Shown piece after piece: positions 14,001 to 42,404 of a DNA stretch of 64,000 nt. The stretch is from the NCBI GenBank assembly GCA_024305745.1, contig JAHRBS010000005.1, forward strand, positions 1 to 64,000. Direction: 5' to 3'. The notes under the pieces were generated by a model. That model worked only from the letters and a program-made list of their open reading frames with translations. It made no database searches and was not told the DNA's origin. A program made the position numbers and the translations under genes. Each line of letters starts with the position of its first letter. Positions within the stretch are counted from its first letter, which is position 1. Source of the DNA: Polyporus tsugae (taxonomy: Eukaryota > Basidiomycota > Agaricomycetes > Polyporales > Polyporaceae).

Positions 14001-14076
14001 CATCCGTCGTCTCCGCGTTGTCCTCCCGTAGCTCCATATCCTTCCCTTTCCCTCGCCTCTTGCTTGCTCCAGACAT
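8002..14076 (-). CDS. Large ParB/sulfiredoxin-like domain protein (gene 2), multi-exon
   Basis: The start at 14076 gives MSGASKRRGKGKD. A short intron leads to a coiled-coil exon (LSELDAQMEALKKTMEAK). At roughly residues 180-300 (13.45-13.08 kb) the sequence has the layout of a ParB/Srx N-terminal domain: a segment like ASIKQSLRLRKVDWEHPM, then IHFLSGNHRQEAM, which contains GNHRQEA and fits the GxxRxxA nucleotide-binding signature of ParB. A Gln-rich coiled coil follows. The central helical region (12.86-9.95 kb) is unrecognised. The C-terminal 650 residues are acidic and Pro-rich, contain AMDVDLPGE, and end in a basic tail at the TAG at 8002. A 556 bp intron (11695-11140) holds eight family A palindromes. 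ParB identity rests on motif reading only; a sulfiredoxin-like or ParB-nuclease-like fold without DNA binding is the main alternative. Confidence 0.68.
11193..11629. repeat. Family A palindromes inside an intron of gene 2 (8 copies)
   Basis: Copies lie at 11193-11223, 11241-11271, 11289-11319, 11368-11398 (right arm decayed), 11434-11464, 11489-11519, 11544-11574 and 11599-11629. The last three form a 55 bp tandem repeat. The whole cluster lies inside the intron spanning 11140-11695. Confidence 0.9.
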
Positions 14077-14297
14077 GTCGACGTTGTATCGGTGTGTAAA
14101 GGCCGTCGATGTGCGAGAATAGATGGTGATGGAGGAGCGCAACATTGCGCTCCCGAAAATTTCCTTCGCTGATCACCTGGACCCCAGCCACTCCACCTGC
14201 CTGATTCGTCCTGCAGCGCGTGTCATAGCCCCCAAAGACCCTCGGCGCACTCGTTTTCTGTCGCGTACGTCGCCCGCTGTGTTCTGTTCCCGTACGT

Positions 14298-15171
14298 TGC
14301 GAGGATGCAGTCTCACTGCATTCTCGCACATATCATATACCTCACTTTCCCATCCAACTCCTGCGAGAACGCAGGACACCTGCTACCTCGCACCAATGCC
14401 ACTATCCACGTTCGTGAATGCTGCGAGATAGCAGTTGTCCTGCGTTCTCGCAATCATTCACAGTGTCTGCCTCTGCGATTGTTGCGAGAACGCAGTTCGC
14501 CTGCGACCTCGCACCATATGTCCGTTCTTTGCGAGAATGCAGTTCATCTGCATTCTCGCACTCATCCGTTTCACGCACTCATACAACAAATGCGAGGTTG
14601 CAGTCGCCCTGCGTTCTCGCAGTCGATCTCACCCATCCGTGCGAGAACGCAGTTCTCCTGCATCCTCGCAGTCGCCCATTTCAACTCATGTGTATACTGC
14701 GAGGTTGCAGTCGCCCTGCTTTCTCGCACCATCTCGACACTTCTCGTCGCTTGCAGGAACGCAGGCCACCTGCTACCCCGCAGTGAATCCTATATTATAT
14801 ATTTCCGTAGATGCTCCGTGATAGCAGGTGCCCTGCGTTCTCGCAGTCATTCACAATATCTACCTCCGTGAACATTGCGAGAACGCAGTTCACCTGCGAC
14901 CTCGCACCGTATGTCCGTTCCTTGCGAGAATGCAGTTCACCTGCAATCTCGCACTCTTCCGTTGGACACATTCCTGTAAACGCTGCGAGATTGCAGTCGC
15001 CCTGCTTTCTCGCAGTTGATCTCACGCATGGGTGCGAGAATGCAGTTGCCCTGCTACCTCGCACCTTATGTGCATTCCTTGCGAGAACGCAGTTCTCCTG
15101 CAATCTCGCAGTCACCCACTTGATGCACTCGTGTAAACGCTGCGAGGTTGCAGTCGCCCTGCATTCTCGCA
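14298..15171. repeat. Main family A palindrome array (16 copies)
   Basis: Sixteen 31 bp palindromes occur every 47-65 bp between genes 2 and 3, for example at 14298, 14362, 14422, 14483, 14530, 14591, 14640, 14698, 14876, 14923, 14984, 15033, 15080 and 15141. Copies near 14752 and 14815 have a decayed left arm. A higher-order repeat is visible, with 14483 onward resembling 14876 onward. TGCGAG and GCAG are nearly invariant, the three bases between them vary as R-W-H, and the 5 bp spacers differ. Confidence 0.93.
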
Positions 15172-15240
15172 GGTTTTCGGGATTCGTGTGGCCATAACCT
15201 AGGTCTAACCATAATCCCCCCCAACTTTGCACCCTTTAAA
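15172..15240. repeat. Boundary block next to the family A array, duplicated at 42.3 kb
   Basis: A 69 bp segment ends in CACCCTTTAAAT. It recurs with a few substitutions at about 42335-42404, again directly after a family A palindrome. After TTTAAAT the two loci have no similarity, so this marks the edge of a duplicated unit. Confidence 0.85.
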
Positions 15241-15384
15241 TTAAACAGGTTCTGGTTGAAATTGAGCGAACATCACCGGGTGTTTGATCCACAGGACTGA
15301 ACCGCCGCGTCCTCCTTGGTCGTGTTGTGCAAAGGCCTCTAATCCTAACATGACCAAACACACACTCCGGGACGCCTCTCGGGC

Positions 15385-15765
15385 ACCCGACCAGGTCGGG
15401 TGAGTGCGAGACAGAAACCCGGGCAGGGCATGCCTTTGTGGCACCCGACCTGGTCGGGTCAAGGCCGCCAGTGGTGTGAACCCGACCAGGTCGGGTGAGT
15501 GCGAGTCAGAGCCGCTGGCAGGGCATGCCTGTGTGGCACCCGACCTGGTCGGGTGAGTGCGAGACAGAGCCGCTGGTAGGGCGTGCTTGTGTGGCACCCG
15601 ACCTGGTCGGGTCAAGGCCGCCAGTGGTGTGAACCCGGCCTGGTCGGGTGAGTGCGAGACAGACCCGCTGGCATGGCATGCCTGTGTGGCACCCGACCTG
15701 GTCGGGTGAGTGCGAGTCAGAGCCGCTGGCAGGGCATGCCTGTGTGGCACCCGACCTGGTCGGGT
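15385..15765. repeat. Family B palindrome array, 153 bp higher-order repeat (8 copies)
   Basis: Copies of ACCCGAC-NNN-GTCGGGT start at 15385, 15443, 15480, 15538, 15596, 15633 (ACCCGGC variant), 15691 and 15749. The spacing pattern 58-37-58 gives a 153 bp repeating unit. The array lies between the 3' end of gene 3 and the family A array, and is the first appearance of family B moving inward from the telomere. Confidence 0.95.
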
Positions 15766-15971
15766 CAAGGCCGCCAGTGGTGTGGGCAGCCATATACACC
15801 AAGAACTCCACTAAATTGGCGGGGATGAGACATTTTACAAGCGTAGCAGTACCCAGGACAAAAAAAGCTAACAGATCCTAGCCAAGATTAGGAACTGTCT
15901 ATGAAGGCACATAGCAAGAAAATCATTCATTTTGTTCATCGTCGTCCAGTGCGAGCTCGAAAACTCCCGTG

Positions 15972-18900
15972 TCATACATCTTCGTTGTACGGCATGGGCT
16001 TGAACTCTCCAGTGTCGTCGTCGTCTTCGTCGTCGTATGGCATGGGCTTGAACTCTCCAGTGTCGTCGTCGTCTTCGTCGTCGTACGGCATGGGCTTGAA
16101 CTCTCCAGTGTCGTCATCGTCTTCGTCGTCGTACGGCATGGGCTTGAACTCTCCCGTGTCGTACGGCATGGGCTTGAACTCTCCAGTGTCATTGTTGGCA
16201 ATCGTGAGGGACTTGCGACGCTGAGAGGCGGATGAGAGTGAAGACTTTTGAGTCTGTCGAGGACGGACATTGCGTGCTGAGAAGATAGATGAATCAGAGA
16301 AATCGGACGGGGCTGAACGTTTCAATCCTTGGATAAAGTGCGCAAACGAAGACATCGCAGGGACTCGGCCGCGGGGGACCTCAGGGGAACTCAGGGCTGG
16401 GCTGGATTCCTCCTCTTCTCTGGCAAGAGGGGGCGGGCGAATATGGGACGGAACAACATGTCCAACGTCGTTAGGAGGCGGGCTGGATTCCTCTTCCTCC
16501 CTTCGGAGCGGAAGGGGCTGACTCGTGTCATCGCGCTCTTGGCGGATGGAGTCCAGAAGGCGGCTGCCATCCTGAAGGAAGCTGCGGTCGCCGTCCGGGT
16601 TAGACTGGCGAACCTGAACACGGTTATAGACCTCCGCGAAAGCCTCGTCCTCCTCCGCCATCGTCTGTGAGCCAGGCGGAGTGGGATTGATGAGAGAGAC
16701 GCAATTTGACCCTGAATAAAATCAAGGATTAACCACGACATTGACAGCGGGGCCTGTGGTATTGGCGGGAAATGCCTGCCAAAGACGTGTGGCTTCTCGG
16801 GGACGGGTTGGCCACATGCGATCGCTCTCGGCGTGGGGAAGCCATCGCAGCTGATTAAACTGCTCCCATAGAGCGGATCTGACCTGCTGGACAGCCCTAG
16901 GGCGAAGACGTGCGAGTTCGAGACTATAGGCGTTGAGATAGGTGCAGTTACGGAAGTTCTGTAAATTGGCGGAGAGCGCAGCTCCTGGGGGAGGAAAGAA
17001 CTTGTCAAAAAACAAGTCTCTCCATTGAGCGATATCCTGGCAGGTGCGAATGTATACCGCGTCGAAGGGGAGAGAGAAGGATTTGAACAAGTCGATGGTG
17101 ACGTCCTGACGTTCCTCTTGAGAGAGATGAATATAGGCAGGTTTGGTTCGAGTTTTATGGTTGGGGGAACACTGGATAAGATCAGAGGGAAATTGAGCCC
17201 AGAGCTTGGAGAAAGCGCGGTCAAGCGTCTCCTCAACATCATCGTCCTGGAACCTGTCCATGGGAACATCCTCGCCTGTCATAGCCAACAGTGGATGCGG
17301 TTGAATGCCATGAGCAGCGAGTTCGAAATCGTGGTGGCGGGGCTGAGACTGGAAGGCCGCGACAGGCACAGTGACTTTGCGGTTGGCCGTACGGGCCTTG
17401 TGGGATTTTGAGAGGGCAGACAACCCCAAAGCACCCGCTCCGAGGGCCTTGGAAACATCGGCCAAGTTCGAAAATGCATACAGGCGAGCCAGTAGGCCAC
17501 GGTCCATAAGACGAGCTCTGGGGAGTCTGAGATATTTGTGTTCCTCATCGCGCACGATCGCCGAGAGGAAATAGAGACCACGAGCAGTTGTGCAGGGTAC
17601 CATGGTCGGCTCCTCGATCAAATAGGCATCAACGTTGTCGGGATCCGCGGGATCCACTGTGGGATAAACCCACAGAGCGCATTGAGCGGCAAGAGCTGTC
17701 TCCGCTCGATCATCACTGGGGCGATAGATGAGAGCGTTGAACATGTAGAGGCACGAGGCACCCAGCATCATGCTAGGAATCCATGCCCGCGCTTCTGGTG
17801 GGGTTCGAGATAACTCCGAGAGAACGCGATAAATGGCGACCATACGAAAGAACTTGAATGTCCTAGAAGACTGGCTGTCAGTAGAGAAAGGTTTGGACAT
17901 GTTGAAACCCAGATTTACCACCAAGTTACTGAAGGAACCGCGATAATGCAATCTTCCATGGCGCGGCGCGGCATGCGAGCAAGAGTGACCTCCGCAAAAG
18001 CAATATTCACACGCGCTTCGAGACGGGCCGCACCATCTTGCGTGTCGCCCTGAGCACCTCCGCAAATAGACATGGTCTCACTGATCTGGTCAATGTCGTC
18101 CAAGAGCTGACCAATGTTCTTGGGCAACAGGTCTGTGCACCGTCTGCGGCGATAGATACCGTGGTTGAGCTGGTAAGTGGCAGCTTTGTCGGTGGTGTAG
18201 ACGTTGAGATACGTGACATAGTCACGGGAACCTAATTTTCCTGGCTCTAATCGAAAGCCAGCGAAGGATGTGAGATGGGCTGTGGGGTCAAGGATAAAAT
18301 GGGAGGAGCCCGTGAGGGAGCGGGCTTGATCCAGAGAGAGAGAGGGCAGAGTATGTTGAATGATGCGACTGTGTCCTTCGGTTGTCCATACGAGGCAATG
18401 ACCAGGTTCGTGGACCTCCAGAGCGACGTCGACAAACCAGTCTGTCGCCAGCTCCTCATCGGGAATGGAGGTAATAATCAGGGGATCCAAGACTCGCCTA
18501 AGGGCGGCACGACGGGCGCGGGCGTCGGAGGGATTGTGAATCGAAGTCCCCTTGACCCCCTTGGCCTCGATCTCGAAGAACGTGTCTTTGAATTTTGGAC
18601 CCAAATTCTGTAGACGCGTCAAGAATTCGTGTGCAAACTGCTGCACCAAGTCCGGAGGAATGTCTCGAGCGACAGGGGAGATGTGGCCGTTCTCACCGCG
18701 GCTAAGGCGTTCAGCAAGTCTGTAGTTGAGTGGCCAAGCAGAGGCCAGCTGAACAGAGCAAGCCTTGATCGCCGGCAAGACAACGCGGTCGTAAATCATG
18801 GGGAAGATGTCGAGGGGGATGGCAGGGGATTCATTCGGAGTGTAGAACCCAGGCAAGAAGACGCGGCCTTGGTGGCGCGTGTCAAACTTCAGGACCATGT

Positions 18901-19386
18901 AGTTCGGAATGCGGTGGAGAGGAACGCGCTTGTTAGCACGCTAGATTGGAGGATGTTAGTTCAACACACGTGCGCCGAACGAAAGGGACTAACCCCAACT
19001 GAGATCTTGCGCGTGATGTGTGTGTTCTTGGTGAGCGTCTCCTTGAAAAGGGGAATAACGTGCCACGAGATGGCCTTCGCGAACGGAAGTCGTTGGGTGA
19101 TCCCGATAACGGAATCAAAGTCACCGACGACCGTGGGGTCGGTGGGAGGCGCAAGGCCTGCACGTGCATTGATGAATGTGCGAACCCATGACAGGTCAGG
19201 GCTACGAGAACGCTGCGAGTCCTCGTGGGAAGGATCCCCAGCGTCTGCACCCAACAGTCCGGTGAGCATGAACTGTTGCAAGGCTCCAGGGTAGGGATCC
19301 TGGTCGACGATGAGAGCGGCCGCCTCAACGAAATGGAACAGAGAGGAAGTCACAGGAGGGAGGTACTCGTCGGGAAAGTCGGGCAT
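15972..19386 (-). CDS. Large subtelomeric protein of unknown function with acidic C-terminal repeats (gene 3)
   Basis: Four exons join in frame: 19386-18994, 18940-17930, 17870-16734 and 16664-15972, giving 1,077 residues. The start MPDFPDEYLPP has no competing upstream start in frame that I see. The first three quarters are globular and unrecognised. The C-terminal 230 residues are disordered and contain a REEEESSPP-type motif twice, then repeats of a 17-residue unit DTGEFKPMPYDDEDDDD (four copies plus one shortened). The 51 bp DNA unit lies at about 15980-16190 and could change copy number by slippage. The gene has the same strand, size class and domain-free body as gene 1, but I could not align the two by eye. 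It is flanked on both sides by family B palindrome clusters. Function unknown; nuclear location is a guess. Confidence 0.75.
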
Positions 19387-19537
19387 GGGGAATACAAAGC
19401 AATGTGTTGTCGGGGAGGGAATGTGTTGTTGGGGAGGGAATGTGTTGTCGGGGAGACCACCAACGACCTATATGGAGGTCCAACGAAGACATCCTCGGGA
19501 ACATGTTGGGGAGTGGCAGGGAGCAGAGGTGCAAAGA

Positions 19538-20219
19538 ACCCGACCTGGTCGGGTGCGTGCAGACGGACGTCGAGCGTAGATTAGTCACTGTTGAAGAAGC
19601 CCCCCTGGCTTCAAGCCTGGTCGGAGCAGCGCAACACAAAAGGAAAGCGAGTAACCTCGAATGCGACTAGCAAGCAACGGAGGTACAGAGAACCCGACCT
19701 GGTCGGGTGCGTGCAGACGGACGTCGAGCGTAGATTAGTCACTGTTGAAGAAGCCCACCCGGGCTTCAAGCTTCAAGCCTGTGAGTGGGTTAGCGTTTCA
19801 GACGCGTAGGATCACGACAAAAGGAAAGGAGTAACCCGACGTGGTCGGGTCTACCGGGGGGGCCGAGCAAACGTCAAGAACTGCGCTAGTAGTTTTGGCC
19901 CCTGGACTAGCTGTTCGAACCAAGATCGCGGCTAGCCGAGCGAGCGCGGGGGGCCCAAGGCGAAGGAGGCCCGCTGTGTATGACCCGACCTGGTCGGGTG
20001 AAAGGACAGTAGGGTAAGTGGTGGGACCCAGCCGCAAGACCCGACCAGGTCGGGTGTCGCGCACGTCGGCCTCGTGCGGTTGAAATCCCCCCTAAACAAA
20101 AAGTGGGCTGCGTGTACGAACCCGACCTGGTCGGGTGTCGCGCACGTCGGCCTCGTGCGGTTGAAATCCCCCCCCAAAAAAAAAAGTGGGCTGCGTGTAC
20201 GAACCCGACCTGGTCGGAT
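19538..20219. repeat. Family B palindromes in the spacer between genes 3 and 4 (7 copies)
   Basis: Copies start at 19538, 19692, 19834 (centre GTG), 19983, 20039, 20120 and 20203 (last bases altered). The first two belong to a 154 bp tandem duplication. The pair at 20120 and 20203 belongs to an 81-83 bp tandem repeat that includes a C/A-rich tract. The cluster lies just upstream of the start of gene 3. The remaining spacer to 20733 shows nothing I can identify. Confidence 0.93.
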
Positions 20220-20733
20220 TGTCATGAATCATCGGCCGCATGCCGTCGAGTAGAAGCCCGTAACTATCAATGAACATCCGATAGACAATTTATTGGTCGT
20301 TGTTAACTTATATCGAAAAGATTAGCCTTGGTGAGGACATAGCTGTCTCTTAGTCCACCCGGAGCACCGGCCGGCGATACATCGCAAAGAGGGAAATCCA
20401 ACTTAAGTTATTCTTTACAAAGTGATGCAAGTGTACAACACTACAGCTGAAGCAGTCCGTGGGGCAGGCGAAAGTGCGCGGGGAGGTGATGGGAGTGAAT
20501 AATGTCCGACGTACATGACAAACGGTACAAATATATGATACATGAGGTCTGAGCGATGCGGAATTGTTTCGACGAGTCCGTGTCTACCTACCAGTGCCTT
20601 GCCCAAGCTGACTAGCACGAAGAGGGAGGGTTGCACGGAGCTTCTGCAAGTGCGCCAGGCTGTCCTCCTTGGTCCGCGTGCCCTCGCCTGCTGCGCAGAT
20701 GACGATCAGCCAGAGCGCCAAAACACCGAACTA

Positions 20734-23700
20734 CTACGCACCCCCCCTCTTGGCACGCTTGACGGCAGGCGCCTCGGGATGGGCTGCGGGTGGAGACCGT
20801 GGAGGACGCGGTCCACCGGTCTGTTGGCTCGAGGATGGCTGAGGGTCGACGTCCATGGGCTCGGGATCCTCGCGCCTCGGTTCCTCATCCTCCTCAGCCG
20901 GGGTGAGTTCATCCTCGAAGCCTTGCTGGATGAGGCGGTCGACAGCGCTCGACACGCCATCGTCGTCATTCTGGGGTTCTTCCTGGCGGGGGCTTGCGGC
21001 ACGTGTAGACTTGGCAGCCTTCTTGATCCTCCTGGAAACCTCGACGACCCCAGAGAAGGAAGGAAGGGCGGGCAGAGCGTCGTCGATGTCGTCGTCGTTG
21101 TCGTCGCCGTCGTTGTCGTCGACGATGGATGCAGATTTGGGCTGAGCCTTTTTCTTGCGACTGGAGACCTTGGACTGAGCCGGCGTGGCCTTCTTCGAAG
21201 CGAGATATGCGAGGGTGAGGTTCCACTCCGCCTTGTCCTGGTCACTTGCACCGGGCGCCTTGACGAGTTTGTTGAGCTTCCGGGTCACAACTCCGCGTTG
21301 GTTTGGAGTCATGTCATCGATGTCGGCGTGGTTCGGGATGCCTTTACGGCCGGAGCTGGCCTGAGGGGCCATGGGTGGCGGCGGGGACCCTGTGGTGGCG
21401 GATGAGCGAGGAGCGGAGCCCGGTACGGGTGGAAGAAGGGGAGTAACATTGATTGTGCACTTACCAGATGGTGGAGACGGCTCCGGCGCATCTTGCCCGG
21501 TGTGCTCGTCTTGGATGGGGCTGGGGGACGCCTGCCTGGCCTTGCCCTTGCCCTTGCCCTTGCCCTTGCCCTTCTGTGTGGACTTTGAGGGCGGTTGCTG
21601 GGCGCCGGACGCTGTCGCTTTGGGAGGCGCGGGGGGCTGTTGCGGACCGACGGCCGGGTGACCAGACGTGGATGGGGCAGCCTTGGCTTTGCCCCGCTTG
21701 CGCGGCTTGGGAGGGACCACCGGCGCCGGGAGTTCGCGCGTCTGGGTCTCCTCGGGCATCTCGATCTCCTCGATCTCATCCTCGTCCGCCGTAGAGCCTG
21801 TGCCCATGGACTTTGGGAGGAAGTAGGTCGCGGCCTCCTCTGGTAATTGCAAATGGTTAGTTCAACGAACGTCCTCGGACGGAGCATACTTACCAAGCCC
21901 TTTGCTGGCGTCGCTGAACTTGAGCATCATCGCCTGCTTGGTGAAGGACAAGACGGTGAGGGACATCTCCGTCGAGTCCTTCAGGAGAGGGTGGTAGACA
22001 ATGACCTCCTTGTCCTGCGGGTGTCGCCACACGCGACCAAGGAGCTGCGTCGTTTCTTGATGCGACCAGAGGGAGTCCTGAGGCAATGTGAGTGGCGCAT
22101 ATGAATCATGGGAAGTACGGCTTACCAGAACCACTAAGACGCACGCCTCCGCCAAATTTAAGCCGGCCATACCAACGCCAGAGAGCAAGCAGACCCGAGG
22201 CCCGTTCCGATCAGACTGCTTGAAGGTGTCGATGTCTGTCTGGCGGGCATTGCCAGCCTTCAGGCCGTTAACCTCGACGTAATCGATGTCGTGGAGGGCG
22301 AGAACCTAAGTGGAATGGGATGATCAGTGAGAGGTGTGAATGAATGACACGAGTTACTGACCCTGGTGATGAGCGCATTGTTGGAGGGGAACGCCACGTA
22401 AACTACGATGCGGTCGGGACACGAGTTCGGAGTGCGGGGCGTGGAAGTGGACCATTCGGGGACCTGCTCCAGTTCATTGACGTCGCCGTCGTCGGCAGGA
22501 TTTTCGCACGTGCGTAGCATCGGGCGGTCATCCTCCTCCAAATGCCATTGCAGAATGGAGACGAGGGTTAGGAGTTTGGTCGAAGGCATCTGGTGCCATT
22601 CCTCAAGGTCTTCGGGCACCCAAAACGGGTCGTTGATGAGGTGGTAGTGGGTGTGGGTACGGCGGAACTTCCCGTAGAACGCCTGTAAACAAGTAGTGAG
22701 CAATTGTCGCAGTGGACGACAATAAGTGTGGAGCAGGTCGACCGAAGTGAAGAACGTGTGTCCAGCTTGACCCGACCTGGTCGGGTACGCACACACGGGC
22801 CCGCTGAGCGCCCTCAGTGGAAGCTGGGCAGCCCAGGGAGCCTTGAGAGCTTGAGCAGCGCAGCAGGGGTAGGTGAGCACCCGACCAGGTCGGGTGCACG
22901 CTGGCAGCCCCTGCTGGGCGGCAAACGTATTCGCGAGTGCCCGAGGAGGCTGAACCCAGGGAGGTCACCCGACCAGGTCGGGTTTCCCGTGGCGACCACC
23001 GTCGACATCCGCCAGTGGCACCCAGAAATCGCCATGCTCAGTAGCGCACCCGACCGAGTCGGGTTGACGCCACCGTCAAACGCTTGGCCCCTTCGCACTC
23101 CAGCGGCGACGGAGCTGGGGTTGCTGGCGGTGACCCGACCTGGTCGGGTCACCGCCAGCAACCACAAGACCCGTGGGACTTCACTTCACCGCGGATTCTG
23201 CAGCTGCGGTGTGGACACCCGACCAGGTCGGGTGGTGCGGGAGCTCGTGTCCACGTTCCGCGAGGTGAAGTCCTGGCACCGCCCTCCACATTCCTGACAT
23301 ATTAGTAGCCTAAAATTGCACTCACGTTGTCCGATCTGTTGAGGTATGTGCCCTTCGTGGCGTTGTCGTCGTGAACGATCTCGTTGGCCATCGCAACGAG
23401 CGCCGCCTTCTCCGCTTCAGAGGGTTGCAGCGCGAGGACCTGCTCGTGGAGGAGCGGAAGGCCAGAGATTGGGTCGCCCTTCCAGTCGAGCGACTTGATC
23501 GTGCGGTGGATGACGCTGCCCTCGTACATCTGGCGGAACTGGTCCATGTATTCGTTCATCGTCTCCATCTGCGCCCTCTTCACCGGGAGTTCGACTTCCC
23601 GAGCGATCAGCTTGCGCACGAAGTCGTCCGCCACCCGCGCCTTCCGGAACTCGACCGTCGCCTTGCGAGAGACCTTCGCCATCTCCTTGGTGATCCGTTT

Positions 23701-25871
23701 CCCCAACTGCCCGTCTCGGCAGCGAGGAAGATCGAGAGCCAAGCCCAAGTTAAACAGGTCCTGCGCAACGTGAGTTAGGTGGTCGCTGAGCGAGGAGGGA
23801 CATACTGCTTACCATGGGTCCGTTTTGGATTGGTGTCGCCGTCATCGCGATCCTGCAGCGTGATCGTTTGAAGAGTTCCCAGGTACCGACGTACACATTG
23901 TTGCAGTTGCGCAACTTGGAAGCTTCGTCCATCGCGACGATTCCGTATTTGCCTTGCTCGAAGATCGTCAACCCGACAGTCATCTCCGTACGTCTCGCCC
24001 GGCCGGTGTCCTCCCTCGCCGGTAACGGCGGACGCTCGTGAGGGCGCAAGAAATAGTGTGCCCCGTCGGATTCCACCGCCTGCGAGTCTTTATCAGCAGT
24101 TTCAAACCGTGACTTAGATTCTAACACTCACCACTGTTGTCGCGACAACAATTCGCCGGCATCGAGGCAGGCCTCCGCGATCCTCCTTCATCTTCGTCCA
24201 GAAGGGCTCGCGCCTTTCGTGGCTGTAGTGGTTCGTGTAGGGCAAGACGTCGAAGGCACCAAATGCGAGATACCGATGGAGCTCCCTCATCCACTGAGTG
24301 TGCAGGGGGGGCGGAACGATGATGATGTGGGGTACGTCCGGCAAATTGCCATCTGGAGTGTTGCATTTCTTGTCGCCTGCTCAATGTTAGTACTAGTCCG
24401 AGGTGTAACCTGAAGCTAGCTTACGGAGACGGCCGGGGAAGTGCCCTTTCTTGATGTAAAACTCCCGGAATGGCGCATACAGCGCGATGCCACCGACAAG
24501 TTGCATGGTCTTGCCGATGCCGACTTCGTCCATGACGAGTACCGGCTTGCCCGTGATGACGTGGTCGATGAGGTCAGCCATCCCGACAAGTTGGTGCCAG
24601 AAGGGGGCGAGAGGGGTCGCTTTGCCTGTTTCGAGGAAGGCCTGCCACTCTGCCACGTGCCACGGGTCGAGGATGCCATTCGGATCTTGCTGGGTGTTGA
24701 ACCCCGGCACCTGGCCGTTGGGGATGCCGAGGTGCTTCCACAAGTCGTCGGGGCTCATGAGCTGGAAGCGCTCTACTCCGGTGTCCCAGTTCCCGACGTC
24801 GTATGGCGTCGCCTCGACTTCCGAGTCGTCGCCGCCGTCGCCGTCGACATACGACATCATCGTGGCGGCTTCGTCGAGCTCACTGAGCACAACCACGACA
24901 TAAGCCTCATCGGCCAACTCCTTGAGAGCCTTGCGGAGAGGCGCGGGGAGCTTGCTGTTGGCCTTCGGGGGCGCCTTCTTCGAGGCAACGAGCTTCATCT
25001 CTTCCAAGCGTTCCTGCCATTCCTCCACGCGCGCTACCATCTCTAAGTCGCCGAACCGGCGGGCGCGGGTGAGGAAACTCTTGATCCTGTTGATAATCTC
25101 CAGGACCTGCTTGTGGGGGACGTCCTCCGGCAGCTCTGGAAAGACCGTTAGCACCTCGCTCGATAAATGAAGCACAAACGTACGTACGCTCGAGGTCCCG
25201 CAACAGATCCACGTTGCTCTGGACGGCGCCGGCTTGCACCCTAGCCCACTGTTTGCCCGCTCCCTCCCACCGCAACTGCACCAACCCTTTCGTGAATGTC
25301 AGCATGTCCGCGTCCATGAGGCCGTAGTCGTCGAACGCGTCTCTTCCGAACAAGTCCCCAGCCAGCGCGTCGTACACATTGTCCAGCTTCAGCAACCCAA
25401 TCGGAATACCCTGTGCAAAATATCAGTTAGCTCTCCAAGCGCCGAGACAGCCCCGGGCCATGCCAACTTTACCTCCTTGTACTTCCTATCGCGGTGGTAC
25501 TTGTAGTAATCGAATTCGCACTCGACCATGACCTTCTTCGTGAGCTCAGCAAAACCGGCGTCTTTCCACGCATTTTTGACGTAATCCTTGAGGACGTTGC
25601 GGCCCGCAGTGTAGAAACTGTCCTCCTTGGGCAGCTTGCCGGAGAGGAAGTTGTGGCGGGGAGTCGCATTGACTTTGGCCTTGTAGGCCTCGAAGGCCGC
25701 CTTGGCCGACTCGTACTGGGCTTCGTCCATCTTGAGGTCCTGGGGGGTGCAGGCCGGACTGAACGGCGCGACCGTGAACCCCGTCTGGGCCTGGAACATC
25801 TCCCAAGTGAAGGCTTCAGGATGGTCGGCGGCGAGCGTGAGCAGCATGTCGGTGGTGGTGTTGGAGGGCAT
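20734..25871 (-). CDS. SNF2-family helicase/chromatin remodeller-like ATPase (gene 4), multi-exon
   Basis: The start at 25871 gives MPSNTTTDMLLTLAADH. After about 400 N-terminal residues the Superfamily 2 motifs appear in order: I, MDEVGIGKT (24.52 kb); Ia, IIIVPPPLHTQWMREL; II, VAMDEASKLRN; III, AMTATPIQN; IV, RIVVYVAFPSNNALITR; V, LLSGVGMAGLNLAE; VI, QLLGRVWRHPQ (22.04 kb). The complete set argues for an active ATPase, although motif I has DEVGIGKT rather than the common DExGxGKT with Leu and motif II is DEAS. The C-terminal 370 residues are Pro-, Lys- and Asp-rich, with a GKGKGKGKGK run, EPMDVDPQPS and a KRAKR ending that looks like a nuclear signal. SNF2 proteins move or remove DNA-bound proteins in the nucleus. 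Intron 23325-22683 (643 bp) is full of family B palindromes. The closest subfamily cannot be set by eye. Confidence 0.85.
22770..23233. repeat. Family B palindromes inside an intron of the SNF2 gene (6 copies)
   Basis: Copies start at 22770, 22879, 22967, 23048 (centre CGA), 23133 and 23217. All lie within the 643 bp intron 22683-23325, whose borders rejoin coding sequence in frame. Several copies have complementary flanks that lengthen the palindrome. Confidence 0.93.
23119..23163. repeat. 45 bp perfect palindrome centred on a family B copy
   Basis: The 17 bp core at 23133-23149 is extended by complementary flanks to 22 bp arms around the single central T at 23141. I checked each base pair from 23119/23163 inward. 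The flanks are not part of the family B consensus. Confidence 0.95.
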
Positions 25872-26347
25872 AACGAGGACAGTTGTAGACAGTGCAGAGT
25901 TGGGGGGTGTTCGTGGAGGGGAACTCGTAAACGGGGGGCAAACGTTCACTGAGTGCGCCTTTTATCAGTCTCCCTCGGCGACGATCTCGATTTCAGGAAC
26001 AGTGAAACGATGCCATCGCTCAGTCCCATCAATCAGTGTCAACGGCGGCCGCAATTCGACCCTGATCCGCGACACGGGAACCCTGAACTTGCGCAAGCCA
26101 CGAGGCGCGGCGACGTTGAGGCGACGTTGAGGCGACCCTCTCTCGCGGCACTTCGGTGTAAATAGAAGCGAACGTCTCCTTCTCGTTTGGCATGTGTCCA
26201 CAGTGACTCAAATTATGGCATCGGCGCCATTTCACGAGAGGGTAGAGGACAGAAAGAAGTTTCTACTGATGATTGCACCGAAGTGGGCGCGTGACGACTG
26301 ATATCACCGTTTTCATACGCCCAAGGTGGGCAGCGTCGGCCGCCGCA

Positions 26348-26869
26348 CCCGACCAGGTCGGGTCATACACCGCGGACCCCATAGCCGCCGTGATCCCAGA
26401 ACGGTAACTGCCTCGGCGCGGTGGCTTGGGCTGGTGCCCATTCACCCGACCAGGTCGGGTCACACACAGTGGACCCCATAGCCGCCGAGATCCCAGAACG
26501 GTAACTGCCTCGGCGCGGTGGCTTGGGCTGGTTCCCATTCACCCGACCAGGTCGGGTCACACACAGTGGGCCGCGCCTCCAGAGCGGTAACTGCCTCGGC
26601 GCGGTGGCTCGGGCTGGTTCCCATTCACCCGACCAGGTCGGGTCACACACAGTGGGCCGCGCCTCCAGAGCGGTAACTGCCTCGGCGCGGTGGCTTGGGC
26701 TGGTTCCCATTCACCCGACCAGGTCGGGTCACACACAGTGGGCCGCGCTTCCAGAGCGGTAACTGCCTCGGCGAAGTCTCCAAGTCGCAGCTCGAGGTGT
26801 CCATTCCGGCCGGTGATGCCATATTGCTCGCCTCGCCATCTGGTGTGCATTGACCCGACCAGGTCGGGT
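26348..26869. repeat. 86-97 bp satellite, each unit carrying one family B palindrome
   Basis: Family B copies start at 26348, 26444, 26541, 26627, 26713 and 26853. From 26444 to 26770 the intervening sequence repeats with an 86 bp period (first unit 97 bp) and few substitutions. The satellite lies upstream of the SNF2 gene. No gene is visible between 25872 and 27328 apart from this. Confidence 0.92.
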
Positions 26870-27328
26870 GCTCACCTGCGGCAAACTTCGACGCTCCACC
26901 GCCAATGGCCCAAACCACTAGACTGCAGGTGGGGGTGCATTCGGTTGAAATATTTACTCGACTCAAGTGCACGCAAAGCATGTAACGATGAATCACATTT
27001 GATTACAGAACATTTGCGTATGTCTTTAAACTGATCAGTCACACAGAATGAAGTCACACCTGTGATCCTCGGACTTGCTCATTCTAGAATGTCCAGCAAG
27101 ACCCTTGTGGTGTTCGTTCAGGGGAGCCTGTCAGTCAATAGCTTCTATTTTACTTGCTCTTCTTCGTACGAAGGCTTCTATTTGACATCTTCGGCACAAT
27201 TACGCAACCTCCTTCTCCACCTCGCCGTCCTCCCCATCTACCACCTGAGTTACCATTCCAGTTCCCCGTCCTACATATTTAATCCTGCTGCATTGTGTTT
27301 CTCTCGCCTGTACGCAGCCCCCGCCACC

Positions 27329-27845
27329 ATGTCGCCCAGCCGCCCCCCCTCTGTAGCTTCCTGCGCATCCACTGTCAGCACCATCCGACCTGTGTGCACC
27401 ACCGAACCTGGTCCCATCCACTCTTTCCATCTCCCCACTCCTTCTCGGAAGTCGTCAGAAGGCACCATGGTCGAGACCGAGCTGTTGAGCACCGACAGCG
27501 ACTCCACCTACACTAAGATTTCGGAGAATCCGCCCTCCAATCGATCATCCACCTGCTCCCAATTATCCGCCTTCCAGGCTGATTCAATGGCCCCGTTTCG
27601 CGACTTGTTCTACGAGCAAGGTCATGGGCATCCCTACCCAAACTACAAGCTTCGTTCTCACAAGGCAAGCACCGCTAAACTCACGTACTTCCTTGTCTAA
27701 CGAATTTTCAGCTCCCTACGCGTCCTCCCACTCCCATTGCTCCACTTCCGCCCCTCCCTGGTTCCATTCAAATGTAAGTGGCGACGTTCTTGACCGACTT
27801 ATTTGTAGCTCATTGTCACCGAAGCAGTTCACAATCAAGCTTTGA
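27329..27845 (+). CDS. Small Ser/Thr/Pro-rich hypothetical protein with a GC-AG intron
   Basis: The start at 27329 has a good context (CGCCACCATG), and a TATA-like CATATTTAA lies about 50 bp upstream. Exon 27329-27664 encodes 112 residues beginning MSPSRPPSVASCAST and is followed by a GCAAGC...CTAAC...CAG intron (27665-27711). Then comes a Pro-rich exon 27712-27773, a very short GT-AG intron (27774-27808), and a stop at 27845, giving 144 residues. The exon 2 motif and its donor recur about 130 bp downstream (Pro-rich, then GTAAGTCGC at 27899), so a longer isoform is possible. No domain recognised. There is no neighbour with which it forms an obvious unit. Confidence 0.5.
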
Positions 27846-28364
27846 GGCGCTTCCCACTCCCACCCCTCTCGATGCAATTCCCCCTGTTCCGATTCCAATG
27901 TAAGTCGCAGCATCTGGCGCCTCATTGCCCGTGGCTCATTCCCGCCAACCAGGACTTTACCCTCTTTTATCTCTTTGGCAAGCTTTGATACTATCCCTAC
28001 ATTTTTCGAGACCATCCAGTCGCCTTCTTGGTGGCGCTGCTGTTAGCATGCCACACGGACTCTTATCATCTCACCACCATCCAGTTCTTGGCTTTGACGA
28101 GTGGCTGTAGGGGGTGCTTGCAGTAACGTAGTCCTAGCATGTACGACGCATAACATGATGTGAACCGCTTTGAATCCGCTGTCATATCCCAGAGCGACGG
28201 CACGTGTGGTGTGATGCAACATAACTGTGGTGCTGAAACCGCGCCCATGGAGGCTTACCATGACCTACCAACGCGCTGCAGGCTAATCCGGCATAATCCC
28301 CTTTCCATGGACTGCGCGCAGAGATCGGCAGAGAAACTTCGGGGCAGAGGCCCCGAGCCGGATA

Positions 28365-28459
28365 ACCCGACCTGGTCGGGTGTAGACTGTGCGCTGCGCC
28401 GGCCCAATGACCGGTTGACCCATCGCAGGTCGCTGTTGGGTGACCCGACCTAGTCGGGT
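28365..28459. repeat. Two family B palindromes beside the large inverted repeat
   Basis: Copies are at 28365-28381 and 28443-28459 (centre CTA), a short distance outside the left arm of the inverted repeat that begins near 28511. Confidence 0.93.
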
Positions 28460-28510
28460 GTACGCACCAGGGCTCCATACTCAGGCACATGAGAGGACCA
28501 CTTCTTGAGG

Positions 28511-29430
28511 AATTGAGAACAGAAATCGGGAGTCGAACCTGGGGCCTTACTCCTCCCCCAAAAACATAAGTATCCCGCTCATGGCATATGCTCAACGACG
28601 CAATCTCCCTGTGAGCTCAAAAATCGAAAGCTTGTCATATCTCTGAGATATGGCAAACTTATGCGACGCAACGGCCAGGAATCGAACCTGGAACCTCCAG
28701 GATTCCGCGGGGATACCTTGAGAGCACCTAGACCACTAGGCCATTGAGGGACGACAGTCAAAGCAATACATTCCCATTAGTGCGGCCATCGCGAAGCGCA
28801 GCGTGTTATTATCCTTGGGACAGAACACCGCAACACAGTGCAATGTTCGGGGTGGCATACTTCCCTGGGCAGCGATGGGATTCGAATTCCAGTGCTCCTA
28901 GTCCGGTCGCTTTTTGACCACTTTTCCTGCTCCCCATTGGCCCGCTGCACCCGACCCGCTGCACCCGACTTCGTCGGGTCAGCGAGAGCCAATGCAGGAG
29001 CAGGAAAAGTGGTCAAAAAGCGACCGGACGATTCAACTATGAGCACTACTGGAATTCGAATCCCATCGCTGCCCAGGGAAGTATGCCACCCCGAACATTG
29101 CACTGTGTTGCGGTGTTCTGTCCCAAGGATAATAACACGCTGCGCTTCGCGATGGCCGCACTAATGGGAATGTATTGCTTTGACTGTCGTCCCTCAATGG
29201 CCTAGTGGTCTAGGTGCTCTCAAGGTATCCCCGCGGAATCCTGGAGGTTCCAGGTTCGATTCCTGGCCGTTGCGTCGCATAAGTTTGCCATATCTCAGAG
29301 ATATGACAAGCTTTCGATTTTTGAGCTCACAGAGAGATTGCGTCGTTGAGCATACGCCATGAGCGGGATACTTATGTTTTTGGGGGAGGAGTAAGGCCCC
29401 AGGTTCGACTCCCGATTTCTGTTCTCAATT
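28511..29430. repeat. 920 bp inverted repeat centred on a family B palindrome
   Basis: The left arm (about 28511-28962) and right arm (about 28980-29430) are reverse complements over roughly 450 bp, with a few small indels near the centre. The apex is the family B copy at 28963-28979 (ACCCGAC-TTC-GTCGGGT). Similarity stops abruptly outside 28511 and 29430. Each arm contains tRNA-like Pol III box sequences. Two further family B half-sites lie in the left arm next to the apex. Confidence 0.93.
29191..29275 (+). other. tRNA-like/SINE-like Pol III box pair (mirrored at 28665-28750 on minus)
   Basis: TGGCCTAGTGG at 29198-29208 fits the A-box and GGTTCGATTCC at 29253-29263 is an exact B-box. The T-arm pairs well (CCAGG with CCTGG). 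The acceptor ends (CCCTCAA and CCGTTGC) do not pair and no anticodon stem is clear, so this is not a normal tRNA gene. A second exact B-box (GGTTCGACTCC) lies at 29402-29412. Both are repeated in the left arm. A tRNA-derived SINE fragment is likely. Confidence 0.55.
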
Positions 29431-29488
29431 TGCACCCATGGTCGGCTCAGGGCATGCGATGTCGTGAGCTGGATACCCCTGCTATGTG

Positions 29489-29739
29489 ACCCGACCTGGT
29501 CGGGTGCACCCCGGGTGCAGACCCCGCATACGTGAATCAATGCATTGGGGTGCACACCGCCGTTGGGTGACCCGACCTGGTCGGGTGTACCCCGAGCATG
29601 TACTCCGCATAGTCAAATCAGCGCATTGGGGGGCACAGCCGCTGTTGGGTGACCCGACCTGGTCGGGTGCACCCGGGGCATAGACTCCGGACACATCAAT
29701 CAACGCATTGTGGTGTTGGGTGACCCGACTAGGTCGGGT
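29489..29739. repeat. Family B palindromes in an approximately 81 bp tandem repeat (4 copies)
   Basis: Copies start at 29489, 29570, 29652 and 29723. The sequence between the first three is similar (AATCA...GCATTG...GTTGGGTG). The last copy, centre TAG, is flanked by complementary GTTGGGTG/CACCTAAC. Confidence 0.93.
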
Positions 29740-30064
29740 CACCTAACAGCGGCCTCCTGCCGACCGTTCACGTACAGCTCCTAGTGACAGCTGCAAGATC
29801 CACGATCCCCAAGCCAACCGCCAACTTGCTGGTATGCCCTTTACTTCATACTGGTCATCTGCAAGAGGACCCATGACATTTGTTACACAACAATATGGGA
29901 GCGACAACATCTCCGCGCGCAACATACAGGCACCTCGCAACCCCACCAAGACATCACCGTCGGCAACCCGCATGCACCCTCCTCCCGTCTTCTCCGTCTT
30001 CTTTGCCTGATTTTTACCCACCGGAGGGTATCGAGGACGGCCGCAGGAACGACGACATCGACGC

Positions 30065-30687
30065 TCACGGTGCCGCTGCTGTGTCCCAGTACACACCGTG
30101 CCTGACAACGGTGGTCACTGCAAAGAAAACAGTTAGCGACACTACACTGCGAATAGATCGGGTTAATACGCACGCTCGTTGAGACTGGTAATGTCTTCTT
30201 TGAGGCGTGCCAAAAGACGCGCCTTCGCATCCGCGACCTCCCCATCCGCCATGTGCAGCTCGACCTCTGTCCTATTGTTCATATGCTCGGCGTACTCAAC
30301 CGCGGCTTCCTCGGCCCTCCCGCGTGCTTGCAAGAATGCGTGCATCGCCGCGCAGAAGCGGTCTTGCGTCGCCTTCATCCGCCTCACCCGTGTGATGATG
30401 GAGTACTCCTCCCCAAACTCCCGCAGCTCCCGAGGGGAAACCCGCTCGTTGTGCGGCAGGGTGGCGAGGTGCCTGTACAGCATGGTGAACTCTGCGTCCA
30501 CGCTCTCCAACGGAGGCAGCGCGCGAACTAGCATGAGGAACACCGACTTCGTGTACGACGTGTTCAAGGTGGCATGCTTCTGCCTCCCGCCTGGGATGGG
30601 GTTCGAGAGTGTAGATGGGTGGCCGGAGAGGACGCGGGCGACGAAGTCGATGACCTCGCGGTGCACAAAGTCGTCGATGCGGCTCAT
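30065..30687 (-). CDS. Small hypothetical protein, paralogue A of a divergent pair
   Basis: Exon 30687-30174 starts MSRIDDFVHREVIDFV. An intron of 55 bp (30173-30119 or one base either side) joins to exon 30117-30065, which ends with WDTAAAP and a stop. The protein is about 189 residues, mostly helical, with a conserved block around REFGEEYSIITRVRRMKATQ and an Ala/Glu-rich coiled-coil-like C-terminal half. It is clearly homologous along its whole length to the plus-strand gene at 31624. Family unknown. The two genes point away from each other across 936 bp holding four family B palindromes. Confidence 0.7.
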
Positions 30688-31138
30688 AGTGGTGAGAATG
30701 ACAGTGATGTGATGGTTGTACTCCCAACTTGCAGTCCCTTTATATTCATCTCCAGGCGGGCTCACCCTCGTCGAGTCAGCGCTACTGCACACGCGGCCAT
30801 CACCTTGACGGCCTTCCTTTTCACTTCACCGTCCATCGCATAATTCCTCGTGTCTCAATCACCACTCCTTAGTATGTTGTCCATCAGTTTCATTCTAAAT
30901 GTAGACAGTTACATTCTCCACTAGTAACCTTCCCTGACACTCCTCGGTACCGCGGAACATCTCTTCGCTTTCTACAACAGATAACGTAATTTCTATATCG
31001 GGCTCCTTCCTGTCCGCTTCAGAAGTTAAACGTGCGCGTAAACCTACTTTATTGTTCCAAATCACCATGGTTTTGTATCTCATGTCCATCTTGTCAAGCA
31101 ATGTGGCCGGTTCGCGCAAATGGACCGCTGGTGCATGC

Positions 31139-31413
31139 ACCCGACTAGGTCGGGTCACCCACCAGCGGTCCCTGCCCGGGGCCATTCGGTTTGTACGCAC
31201 CCGACCAGGTCGGGTCACTACCGTGCAACCCGGCCAAGGCATGCAGGCTTCCGAGGGATGGCATGGCCCATGCGCATTGACCCGACCAGGTCGGGTCTCT
31301 ACCCACAGCCCCTCCTCTGCCATCGGCTATTGGGCTGTGCTCTAGGAAACACTCTACTTGATACAATCGACTTCGCTCATTGCGTCTCACCCTAACACCC
31401 GACCAGGTCGGGT
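31139..31413. repeat. Family B palindromes between the divergent paralogues (4 copies)
   Basis: Copies start at 31139 (centre TAG), 31199, 31280 and 31397; these are the innermost copies found. The first is flanked by GCTGGTG and CACCAGC, which extend the stem with an interruption. The last is extended to ACACCCGAC...GTCGGGTGT. Confidence 0.93.
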
Positions 31414-31623
31414 GTGCTGAGCCAGGACCTGAACGCACCCTGGCTGGTAACCCCGGCCCAAGGGTCAATCAGCGTCTATAGGATGTAACCCTAGTGTAGG
31501 GGTGAGTAACCCTACAGTAGGGGCTATTTTCATCCCTGGGATGGCTCACCAAACAGTATCCAATAACCCTAAGGGACCGCAAGTTGGGAGAGCAGCCATC
31601 GCATCACTGTCATTCTCACCGCT

Positions 31624-32252
31624 ATGAGCTTCATCGACGACTTTGTGCACCAGGAGGTCATCAACTACGTCACCCGGACTGTCTCCCGCCACCCATCCAC
31701 ACTTACACAATTGACCCCCATCACAGGCGCGACGCTGCAGCCTGCTAGTTTGAACGTGTCGTACACGATGTCGGCGTTCCTAATGCTAGTGCGCGCGCTG
31801 CCTCCGTTGGTGAATGTGGATAGCGAGTTCAGCACGCTGTACAGCCACCTCGCCAGCCTGCCGTATCACGAGCGGCCTGGCCTTCGGGATCTGCGGGAGT
31901 TTGGTGAGGAATACTCCATCATTACGCGGGTCAGGCGGATGAAGGCGACGCAAGACAACTTCTGCGCAGCGATGCACGCGTACTTGCAAGCACGCGGAAA
32001 GGCCGAGGAAGCCGCCGCTGAGTACGCCGAGGAGATGAACCAGAGGACGGAGGGCAAGCTGCACATGGCGGATGCGGAGGTCACGGAGGCGAAGGCGCAT
32101 CTTTTGGCGCACCTCAAAGAAGACATCACGAGTCGCAACGAGTGTGAGTATCAACCCGATCTGTTCGCGGTATAGAGTTACTAACTGTTTTCTCTGCAGT
32201 GACCACTGTTGTCAGGCACGGTGTCTACTGGGACACAGCAGCGGCACCGTGA
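31624..32252 (+). CDS. Small hypothetical protein, paralogue B of a divergent pair
   Basis: Exon 31624-32143 begins MSFIDDFVHQEVINYV. The intron (32144-32199) is in the same position and phase as in paralogue A, and exon 32200-32252 ends WDTAAAP-stop. The protein is 190 residues. Blocks such as FLMLVRALPP and EFGEEYSIITRVRRMKATQ match paralogue A residue for residue, so both copies appear to be under constraint. The direct telomere-like CCCTA-rich motif at 31495-31550 lies just upstream. No function can be assigned. Confidence 0.72.
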
Positions 32253-32739
32253 GCGCCGATGTCTTGGGTGAGAAAGTAGGACGGTGTCTGTACTGCGTGT
32301 ATTGCTTAATATGTTGTCGCATTGCATATTGTAACTCAATGTCATGGCCTGTCTTGGTCTAGGAGATGGACTTAGTCAATGAAGTGGACGGACAGCTCAG
32401 ATGCTTGTCCTGCCTCCCGCTGCAAACTGGCTTGCAAGGTTATTATATCAGTATTGCTTCGTTCAATGCCACTATTAAGTGGTCAATTGATCAATGCATC
32501 AATGTCTTTACCCCGCCGTGTTATTAGCATACGGGACAGTATTCATTAGTAGCAGTATATCAGCTAAGTACTGCACTTGGTCGCACCCCATGCACAGTGT
32601 GTCCGTGCAGGATGGAGACCTATGGCCCGACGCCTGACCGCACACGCACTACCGATGGGCAGAACAACAAGATATGGGCACTAGTCTACCAATAATTCAG
32701 CCGAATAAAGACTTAAAGATCAGTTAATGTTAATGCATC

Positions 32740-33190
32740 AATGCACCGCATAATAGGGGCATTGAACGAAGCAAAAGAGATAGGTGCTTTGTAATGACCA
32801 TGCAGGCCAGTTGGCACATCATTGCAATATGAGCCAGGTCTAACACCGGACCTGTCCGTCCTGGACGGACACCTGCGGGACTGCCCTTGCCCCACCACAT
32901 GTGCGTGGTCCTATACTCGGCTGTCCGTCCAGGACGGATACCCCTGCTCTGCCCCCTGCTCTCCTTTATTCTCAATAGTGGCATTGAACGAAGCAAAAGG
33001 GATAAGTACTATGTAATGACCATGCAGGTTGGCACATCATTGCAATATGAGCCAGGTCTAACACCGGACCTGTCCGTCCTGGACGGACACCTGCGGGACT
33101 GCCCTTGCCCCACCACATGTGCGTGGTCCTATACTCGGCTGTCCGTCCAGGACGGATACCCCTGCTCTGCCCCCCGCTCTCCTCTATCTT
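32740..33190. repeat. About 220 bp tandem duplication carrying family C palindromes
   Basis: Two copies, about 32740-32970 and 32971-33190, are nearly identical. Each carries two 19 bp palindromes TGTCCGTCC-N-GGACGGAYA: 32853-32871 and 32922-32940, then 33072-33090 and 33141-33159. The edge motif GCATTGAACGAAGCA also occurs inverted near 32455. Between 32253 and 32740 I see no gene. Confidence 0.88.
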
Positions 33191-33389
33191 CCCACCCTTA
33201 TCCTCTTTATATCCTCCTTGCTCACTCCATCAATGTGGATGTAAGTCCACTTACCACTCCGATTCTCAGTTGCTAATACCGGACTCCTTACTCCCTTATC
33301 ACATCCGACTTACTGTTCTCTTTGTACGGTGCTGGCGCTAATGGTCCCTCGCTTAGGAGCCAAGCGCTTAGCGCTGGCTAGGCAGGCGC

Positions 33390-42086: not shown

Positions 42087-42404
42087 TTGCAGTCGCCCTG
42101 CGTTCTCGCAGTCGATCTCACCCAACCGTGCGAGAACGCAGTTCTCCTGCATCCTCGCAGTCGCCCATTTCAACTCATGTGTATACTGCGAGGTTGCAGT
42201 CGCCCTGCTTTCTCGCACCGTCTCGACACTTCCGGTCGCTTGCGGGAACGCAGGCCGCCTGCATCCTCGCAGTGAATCCTATATTATATATTTCCGTAGA
42301 TGCTCCGTGATAGCAGGTGCCCTGCGTTCTCGCAGGTTTTTGGGATTTGTGTGGCCATAACCTGGGTCTAACCATAATCCCCCCCAACTTTGCACCCTTT
42401 AAAT
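42087..42404. repeat. Copy of the distal family A array, with internal deletion
   Basis: From 42087 the sequence matches 14598-14846 (five family A palindromes, the first truncated), then jumps to match 15171-15240 and ends at the same TTTAAAT edge. It is joined directly to the truncated third satellite unit. It is the only family A sequence outside 4.0-15.2 kb. Confidence 0.94.

Follow-up and report, generated by a model that had tools for sequence, protein, structure and literature searches.

The first 64 kb of contig JAHRBS010000005.1 (C5, 2.13 Mb) of the Polyporus tsugae assembly GCA_024305745.1 (43.2 Mb in 18 contigs), hereafter the window, opens with CCCTAA telomere repeats and carries a short palindrome, ACCCGAC-NNN-GTCGGGT, in numbers that raise the question of what this motif belongs to and what reads it. 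The palindrome, here called family B, was traced to a single lineage of a subtelomeric element whose two core genes encode an orphan protein of ~850 amino acids (aa) (gene 1) and an SNF2 ATPase (gene 2). In sister lineages of this element, at other chromosome ends, the palindromes are different but keep the CCWGG core.

At up to two mismatches the family B pattern ACCCGACNNNGTCGGGT was found 38 times in the window, 36 times exactly and with one mismatch each at 15633 and 20203, and all copies lie within 15385-31413; the count and the coordinates given in an earlier note on this DNA were both reproduced. That note had also called the density far beyond chance and had placed the motif in intergenic, satellite and intronic settings. 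The 38 copies stand against a mean of 0.37 and a maximum of 2 in 100 dinucleotide shuffles, a scan for short palindromes (arms of at least 7, gap of up to 4) returned family B as the dominant family of the window, and copies were located in tandem arrays (15382-15784 and 26493-26773) and, six of them, in an intron of the SNF2 gene. The central triplet had been described as varying, and seven triplets are indeed present (CTG 17, CAG 15, TAG 2, and one each of CTA, GTG, CGA and TTC), but free variation was rejected: because CAG and CTG are one site on opposite strands, 32 of 38 copies have a CWG centre, and the unit is written as 8+1+8, ACCCGACC-W-GGTCGGGT, with its dyad on the W. The surroundings, said to be often unrelated, were divided, 17 of the 38 copies having no flank in common with any other copy and 21 having a 20-bp flank in common with another copy at 15/20 or better (ungapped, same side).

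A genome-wide count, proposed in the same note as a check for restriction to chromosome ends, gave no even distribution, but neither is the motif a general mark of chromosome ends, since it follows one element lineage only. Forty-two exact copies were found, 36 of them in the window, four at C17:3029473-3029747, one at C4:276614 and one at C13:1521124. The C17 copies lie ~24 kb from the contig end, in a duplicate of window positions 31039-33484 (main pieces 98.6-99.6% identical). At up to two mismatches the genome held 197 matches against 151 for a reversed-pattern control, and for this reason loose matches elsewhere are taken to be mostly background; among the matches listed, six one-mismatch places outside the cluster all have a centre other than CWG.

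Paralogues of genes 1 and 2 were placed by genome search (46 of 66 candidates scored for gene 2) at the ends of C2, C3, C6, C8, C13, C14 and C16, and none of the 15 gene 1 matches is more than 40 kb away from a contig end. Telomere repeats stand at the starts of C2, C3, C5, C8, C13 and C16; the start of C6 reads N. Sister elements were mapped from the C6 and C2 stretches, the copies on C3, C8, C13, C14 and C16 being placed by score alone. C3, C6, C8, C13, C14 and C16 are taken as one lineage because of their near-identical scores, and C2 is a third lineage. Both core genes are present in all three lineages, with identities between them of 48.5-61% for gene 1 exons 2 and 3, 41-45% for gene 1 exon 1 (C5 against C6 and C2) and 27-59% by stretch for gene 2, and both genes bear variable, repeat-rich tails. 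The gene 2 product matched SNF2-rel_dom and Helicase_C in Pfam, and the solved structures related to it by sequence are those of Chd1, CHD4 and Rad54-like ATPases. At E values up to 1e-3, DNA matches between C5 and C2 were confined to coding parts except for C2:18780-18864, which lies beyond the mapped element; those between C5 and C6 were found in coding parts, around family C palindromes (see below), in the gene 4/5 stretch at 29.8-33.4 kb and in two short pieces at window positions 6362-6826.

Each of the three lineages has its own palindrome family, and the families occupy matching places. The C6 element carries family C, GTCCGTCC-W-GGACGGAC, in 24 exact copies (any centre base) and 35 at up to two mismatches, and the C2 element carries family D, TGGNCYTCC-W-GGARGNCCA, in 22 exact copies and 34 at up to two mismatches. 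Against the 38, 35 and 34 copies of families B, C and D in their own elements, Markov sequences gave no more than 1 for each (20 sequences each). The centre base is W in 37/38, 30/35 and 30/34 copies, respectively; the core CCWGG at the dyad is common to all three families, and CCG-W-CCWGG-W-CGG to families B and C. No cross-family match at up to two mismatches was found in C6 or C2, and C5 held five family C matches at this threshold, four at 32854-33157 and one with two mismatches at 16252; at three mismatches, three more single cross-family matches appeared. Genome-wide, family C has 236 exact copies, and its one-strand pattern gave 168 matches, of which the first 100 listed all lie within ~40 kb of a contig end except C4:276365. 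Of the 20 matches to the A-centred form of family D, 18 were located at the C2 end; the remaining 2 lie close to the right end of C13. Solitary sites were also observed: a family C and a family B site stand 249 bp apart at C4:276365-276630, in interior DNA without recognisable element genes, and the family B site on C13 lies in the interior of a 3.9-Mb contig. The solitary C4 and C13 copies have only short matches around the palindrome in common with element copies.

In the three mapped elements, palindrome clusters flank genes 1 and 2 on both sides. The coding stretches counted account for 49% (C5), 38% (C6) and 43% (C2) of the mapped elements and contain none of the 107 palindromes (38+35+34; 0/38 for family B); for C6 and C2 the coding spans are match spans, which take in small introns but not the variable tails. 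Two matches within coding spans, C6 13413 and C2 6533, have three mismatches and fall short of the threshold applied. The matching places include a long intron of gene 2 that is found at the same codon boundary in the three lineages, in phase 0 and directly before AFYGxFRR. This intron is 643 bp long with six family B copies in C5, 647 bp with seven family C copies in C6 (12316-12962) and 607 bp in C2 (11061-11667), where it holds seven family D copies at up to three mismatches and six at up to two. Beyond the palindromes, the splice signals and short matches of marginal significance, the three introns cannot be aligned.

Conservation of arms was compared with that of flanks in alignments seeded only outside the palindromes and having at least 5% flank divergence; such alignments overlap in tandem arrays, and the counts are not independent. 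Differing columns amounted to 4/335 (1.2%) in the palindrome vs 111/906 (12.3%) in the flank for family B, 5/342 (1.5%) vs 175/1636 (10.7%) for family C and 33/503 (6.6%) vs 371/1676 (22.1%) for family D. The aligned partner was again a palindrome in 64 of 66 cases (21, 21 and 22 kept), the two losses both being in family D. With seeding also allowed on palindromes, the figures were 15/799, 5/862 and 13/710 (B, C and D) vs 306/1884, 400/3201 and 437/2539 in the flanks. The earlier view that the palindrome itself is the conserved unit is upheld, family B arms differing about ten times less than their flanks, and arms no better conserved than flanks, the outcome named against that view, were looked for and not found. 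Covariation between half-sites was assessed in family D only, families B and C having too few variants. Half-sites agreed in 30/68 cases at two variable positions vs 32.7 after permutation, and in 12/44 vs 18.5 outside the tandem array, so the two halves vary without covariation. Deviant copies are mostly broken on one side only (7/8 in family B, 11/11 in family C). Because arms are conserved above their flanks and family D half-sites vary independently, sites of a dimeric protein are favoured over hairpins; the dimeric protein-site reading of the earlier note thus gains support from arm conservation and from the independent half-sites of the sister family on C2.

A cognate dimeric binder encoded by the element is suggested because the sites are lineage-specific and symmetric, have a constant architecture, lie in non-coding DNA beside two core genes and are swapped as a set. 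On these sequence patterns it seems somewhat probable that the palindromes are lineage-specific sites of an element-encoded dimeric DNA-binding protein that co-diverges with the element; we infer the binding itself, the identity of the binder and the direction of its effect. The most likely recogniser would be either the product of gene 1 or gene 2 itself. The proteins of these two genes are the shared candidates known here because gene 5 has no match on C2 and the open reading frame (ORF) at 27035-27700 has none in the C2 or C6 stretches; their B-lineage forms would be the candidate binders of the family B site ACCCGACCWGGTCGGGT. Each lineage's dialect would consist of the common CCWGG core at the dyad and of private outer bases. 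Once loaded on the dense non-coding clusters of its own element, that of the gene 2 intron among them, the protein would bring, or be, the SNF2 remodeller, such that the chromatin of its own element alone would be remodelled. The most plausible outcome of remodelling would be that subtelomeric silencing is counteracted and expression becomes possible, much as with VANC and the VANDAL transposons of Arabidopsis, but an anti-silencing direction is put forward with real doubt, self-silencing and autoregulation being the alternatives. It is a tentative possibility that the system amounts to a self-identity code with an origin independent of plants, in which each lineage writes and reads its own palindrome and opens its own chromatin, not that of its sisters; new specificities would then come about through changed outer bases around a fixed CCWGG core. 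Two open questions are touched by such a system, namely how selfish elements distinguish their own DNA and how a binding specificity and more than 30 sites change together. With three dialects in one genome, the partner genes adjacent and a shared intron serving as a position-by-position control, the co-evolution of protein and site becomes directly testable.

Other explanations were weighed against the same data. The palindromes may act in RNA, forming hairpins or pairing mutually to give double-stranded RNA for RNA interference or to fold the long intron for splicing. Against a folding control in which the palindromes were kept and the spacers shuffled (15 shuffles each), the long introns of C5, C6 and C2 do fold beyond what the palindromes alone produce (z -4.1, -7.4 and -3.5), as do the non-intronic clusters C5 29480-29760 (z -4.7), C6 8460-9280 (z -37) and C2 14470-14870 (z -2.5); C6 8463-9170 is a large inverted repeat, and clearly longer inverted repeats hold 4 of the 38 family B copies. 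Of the ten non-intronic clusters folded, however, the remaining seven gave no excess (z -1.4 to +1.4), and what is conserved is sequence, not pairing alone, so an RNA role for the palindromes as a whole is considered improbable. Cruciforms or hairpins of single palindromes were rejected, given that family D half-sites do not compensate and that clearly self-complementary flanks accompany 4/38 family B copies (22879, 23133, 28963 and 31139). Pairing between neighbours was rejected as the main account since it is not general: among neighbouring sites, inner stems (0/30, 2/26 and 2/32 in B, C and D) and outer stems (2/30, 5/26 and 4/32) at p<0.05 were rare, the latter with a slight excess in families C and D. 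For the introns, structure that aids the splicing of a 640-nt intron, in a gene whose other introns are 48-62 nt, may reasonably account for the folding. A functionless origin, as tiny mobile palindromes or as neutral repeats that unequal exchange has homogenised, would fit the tandem arrays that make up several clusters, the flanks in common among 21/38 copies and the short matches around the solitary C4 and C13 copies. Homogenisation would carry flanks along, yet 17/38 copies have none in common; the arms remain conserved beside homologous flanks that have diverged, equivalent places are occupied by a different palindrome in each lineage, and solitary copies outside elements number three among the matches listed. 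An origin of this kind is therefore regarded as very improbable.

The palindromes could instead be bound by host factors acting in silencing, at boundaries or in telomere position effects, which would have diversified to keep each lineage in check, much as repressors follow transposons. The sites lie at chromosome ends, where DNA is often silenced, and the solitary pair at C4:276365/276614 puts family B and C sites in ordinary chromosome DNA as well. This is nevertheless unlikely: an element has nothing to gain from keeping 34-38 repressor sites, arm constraint is strong inside the element, and the three specificities follow the three element lineages. Sites of recombination, replication or end maintenance, read by a recombinase, nuclease or initiator and enabling inversion and spread between ends, would agree with the orientation of genes 1 and 2 in C6, where both are opposite to C5 and C2 and each is flanked by clusters on both sides, with the position of copy 28963 at the centre, and of copy 31139 within ~10 bp of the centre, of inverted duplications, and with the spread of family C over many ends. 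Such a role is distinctly unlikely, since the ORFs scanned contained no recombinase or transposase domain, an intron of one gene is hardly a sensible location for six or seven exchange points, and sites of this type are not as a rule kept at more than 30 copies.

Several observations weigh against a dimeric protein encoded by the element as well. A known DNA-binding domain was not found in gene 1, which had no Pfam match and a best PDB match at an E value of 0.89, and the structure prediction for its exon 3 (4-row alignment) reached a predicted local distance difference test score (pLDDT) of only 37. Of the three families D is the most degenerate: 22 of its 34 copies fit an already loose consensus exactly, and its arms are less strictly conserved. 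Two family B copies (C4 and C13) and at least one family C copy lie outside elements. The excess folding of the long introns also counts against protein sites, because protein binding does not predict it.

The features of the C5 element are collected in Table 1. Eight of the modelled introns of gene 2 measure 48-62 bp and the ninth is the long one; a further intron is possible in the last exon. The start of the ORF adjoining gene 1 (...EVYNRVQ) resembles the gene 1 tail in C2 (...ELYNRIQ). Genes 4 and 5 form an inverted pair of about 174-183 aa as scanned. The gene 5 protein is 97-99% identical to full-length copies on other chromosome ends and had no match on C2, and gene 4 is considered accessory because this paralogue has no match there. 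Most subtelomeric ORFs scanned had no match in Pfam.

Table 1. Genes and palindrome clusters of the subtelomeric element on C5 (window coordinates)
Feature	Position	Strand	Remarks
Family B cluster 1	15385..15765		beyond the 3' end of gene 1; its 8 copies lie in a 58/37-bp tandem array
ORF adjoining gene 1 3' end	15972..16663	-	tandem peptide repeat DTGEFKPMPYDDEDDDD; no Pfam match
Gene 1, orphan protein, ~850 aa	16725..19386	-	3 exons: 18994-19386, 17930-18940, 16725-17870
Family B cluster 2	19538..20219		7 copies, flanked by the 5' end of gene 1 and the 3' end of gene 2
Gene 2, SNF2-related ATPase with Helicase_C	20734..25871	-	modelled with 10 exons, 1356 aa
Gene 2 643-bp intron	22683..23325	-	6 family B copies at 22770-23233
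Family B cluster 4	26347..26869		6 copies upstream of gene 2; tandem array 26493-26773
Family B cluster 5	28365..29739		7 copies; copy 28963 centres a 920-bp inverted repeat
Gene 4, ~174 aa	30175..30687	-	no Pfam family above cut-off; accessory
Family B cluster 6	31139..31413		4 copies, with genes 4 and 5 diverging on either side; a duplicate of the cluster lies at C17:3029473-3029747
Gene 5	31624..32142	+	gene 4 paralogue, inverted, 85% DNA identity
Four family C palindromes	32854-33157		two match GTCCGTCC-W-GGACGGAC exactly and the other two have one mismatch; C6-derived stretch from 31571

Other repeats were observed in and around the element. From 31571 to 33484 the window passes into C6-like sequence (98.5-99.7% identical) with family C palindromes, a chimera of two lineages that has been copied to the C17 end. 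The inverted repeat centred on copy 28963 spans 28511-29430 (920 bp, 94.6%) and has a stretch of tRNA-like appearance in each arm; tRNA genes were rejected for 28680-28760 and its inverted copy, ARAGORN calling none in the window, and known RNA families gave no match above the gathering score in 14001-34000. A separate subtelomeric palindromic satellite, TGCGAGNNNGCAGNNNNNCTGCNNNCTCGCA (TGCGAG...CTCGCA, presumably the Family A of the earlier note), was found at 14200-15172, 3986-4110, 11193-11629 and 42084-42404, with 203 exact copies genome-wide that include, among the matches listed, the ends of C1, C2 and C3. Tandem 2.25-kb repeats (37138-42086, 99.7% identical) carry the palindrome CTGGCCCTAAGGGGCTTAGGGCCAG at 37551, 39799 and 42047, and an ORF adjoining the element at 35139-35897 encodes an OrsD domain (PF12013).

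Among systems in which repeated motifs mark chromosome ends or mobile DNA, Plasmodium PfSIP2 reportedly binds a repeated subtelomeric motif as a host regulator with one specificity, and differs from the present case in that no set of lineage-specific palindromes is known for it. The protein is described in connection with chromosome-end biology in excerpts of PMC2829057. A literature search of open PMC text met, among the papers listed, no account of lineage-specific element palindromes like families B, C and D. Neisserial DNA-uptake sequences, which also occur in dialects, are a bacterial uptake signal whose tags are found genome-wide and also in genes; the palindromes resemble them as dense, short, self-marking tags whose core is common and whose outer bases differ by lineage. 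Subtelomeric helicase elements include the fungal telomere-linked helicases and the Y' elements of yeast. The name TLH, for telomere-linked helicase, is used in excerpts of PMC8381367. Like TLH and Y' elements, the element described here is multi-copy and telomere-adjacent, has near-identical copies on several ends and encodes a helicase-like ATPase; unlike RecQ-type TLH, its gene 2 is of the SNF2 type (SNF2-rel_dom, Helicase_C). To our knowledge, lineage-specific palindromes are no described feature of TLH or Y' elements.

Of the published systems, VANDAL transposons of Arabidopsis and their VANC anti-silencing proteins come nearest in behaviour. In excerpts of PMC5735166, VANC21 localises to introns and to intergenic and terminal non-coding parts that are dense in a private motif, and VANC6 recognises motifs other than those of VANC21; according to excerpts of PMC5735166 and PMC10398659, the targets form tandem repeats and the proteins have conserved cores with variable, repeat-rich parts. 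As far as these excerpts go, the likeness extends to an element-specific short motif dense in non-coding DNA (here 0/107 in coding stretches and 6-7 per shared intron), to a motif that differs between related lineages (here families B, C and D) and to motif arrays that include tandem repeats together with variable, repeat-rich protein parts (here the tails of genes 1 and 2). The VANDAL motif is shorter and non-palindromic, whereas the present sites are palindromes of 17-19 bp with a CCWGG core; the partner genes here encode an orphan protein and an SNF2 ATPase at fungal chromosome ends, and the palindromes are putative binding sites. No Mutator-type transposase or VANC domain (labelled DUF1985) was found in genes 1, 2, 4 and 5 or in other selected ORFs (35 proteins, Pfam), and for this reason the element is not counted as a VANDAL/VANC member and the likeness is one of inferred behaviour. 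If the VANC-like reading is true, the palindromes and their element would represent sequence-specific anti-silencing outside plants, achieved with different proteins.

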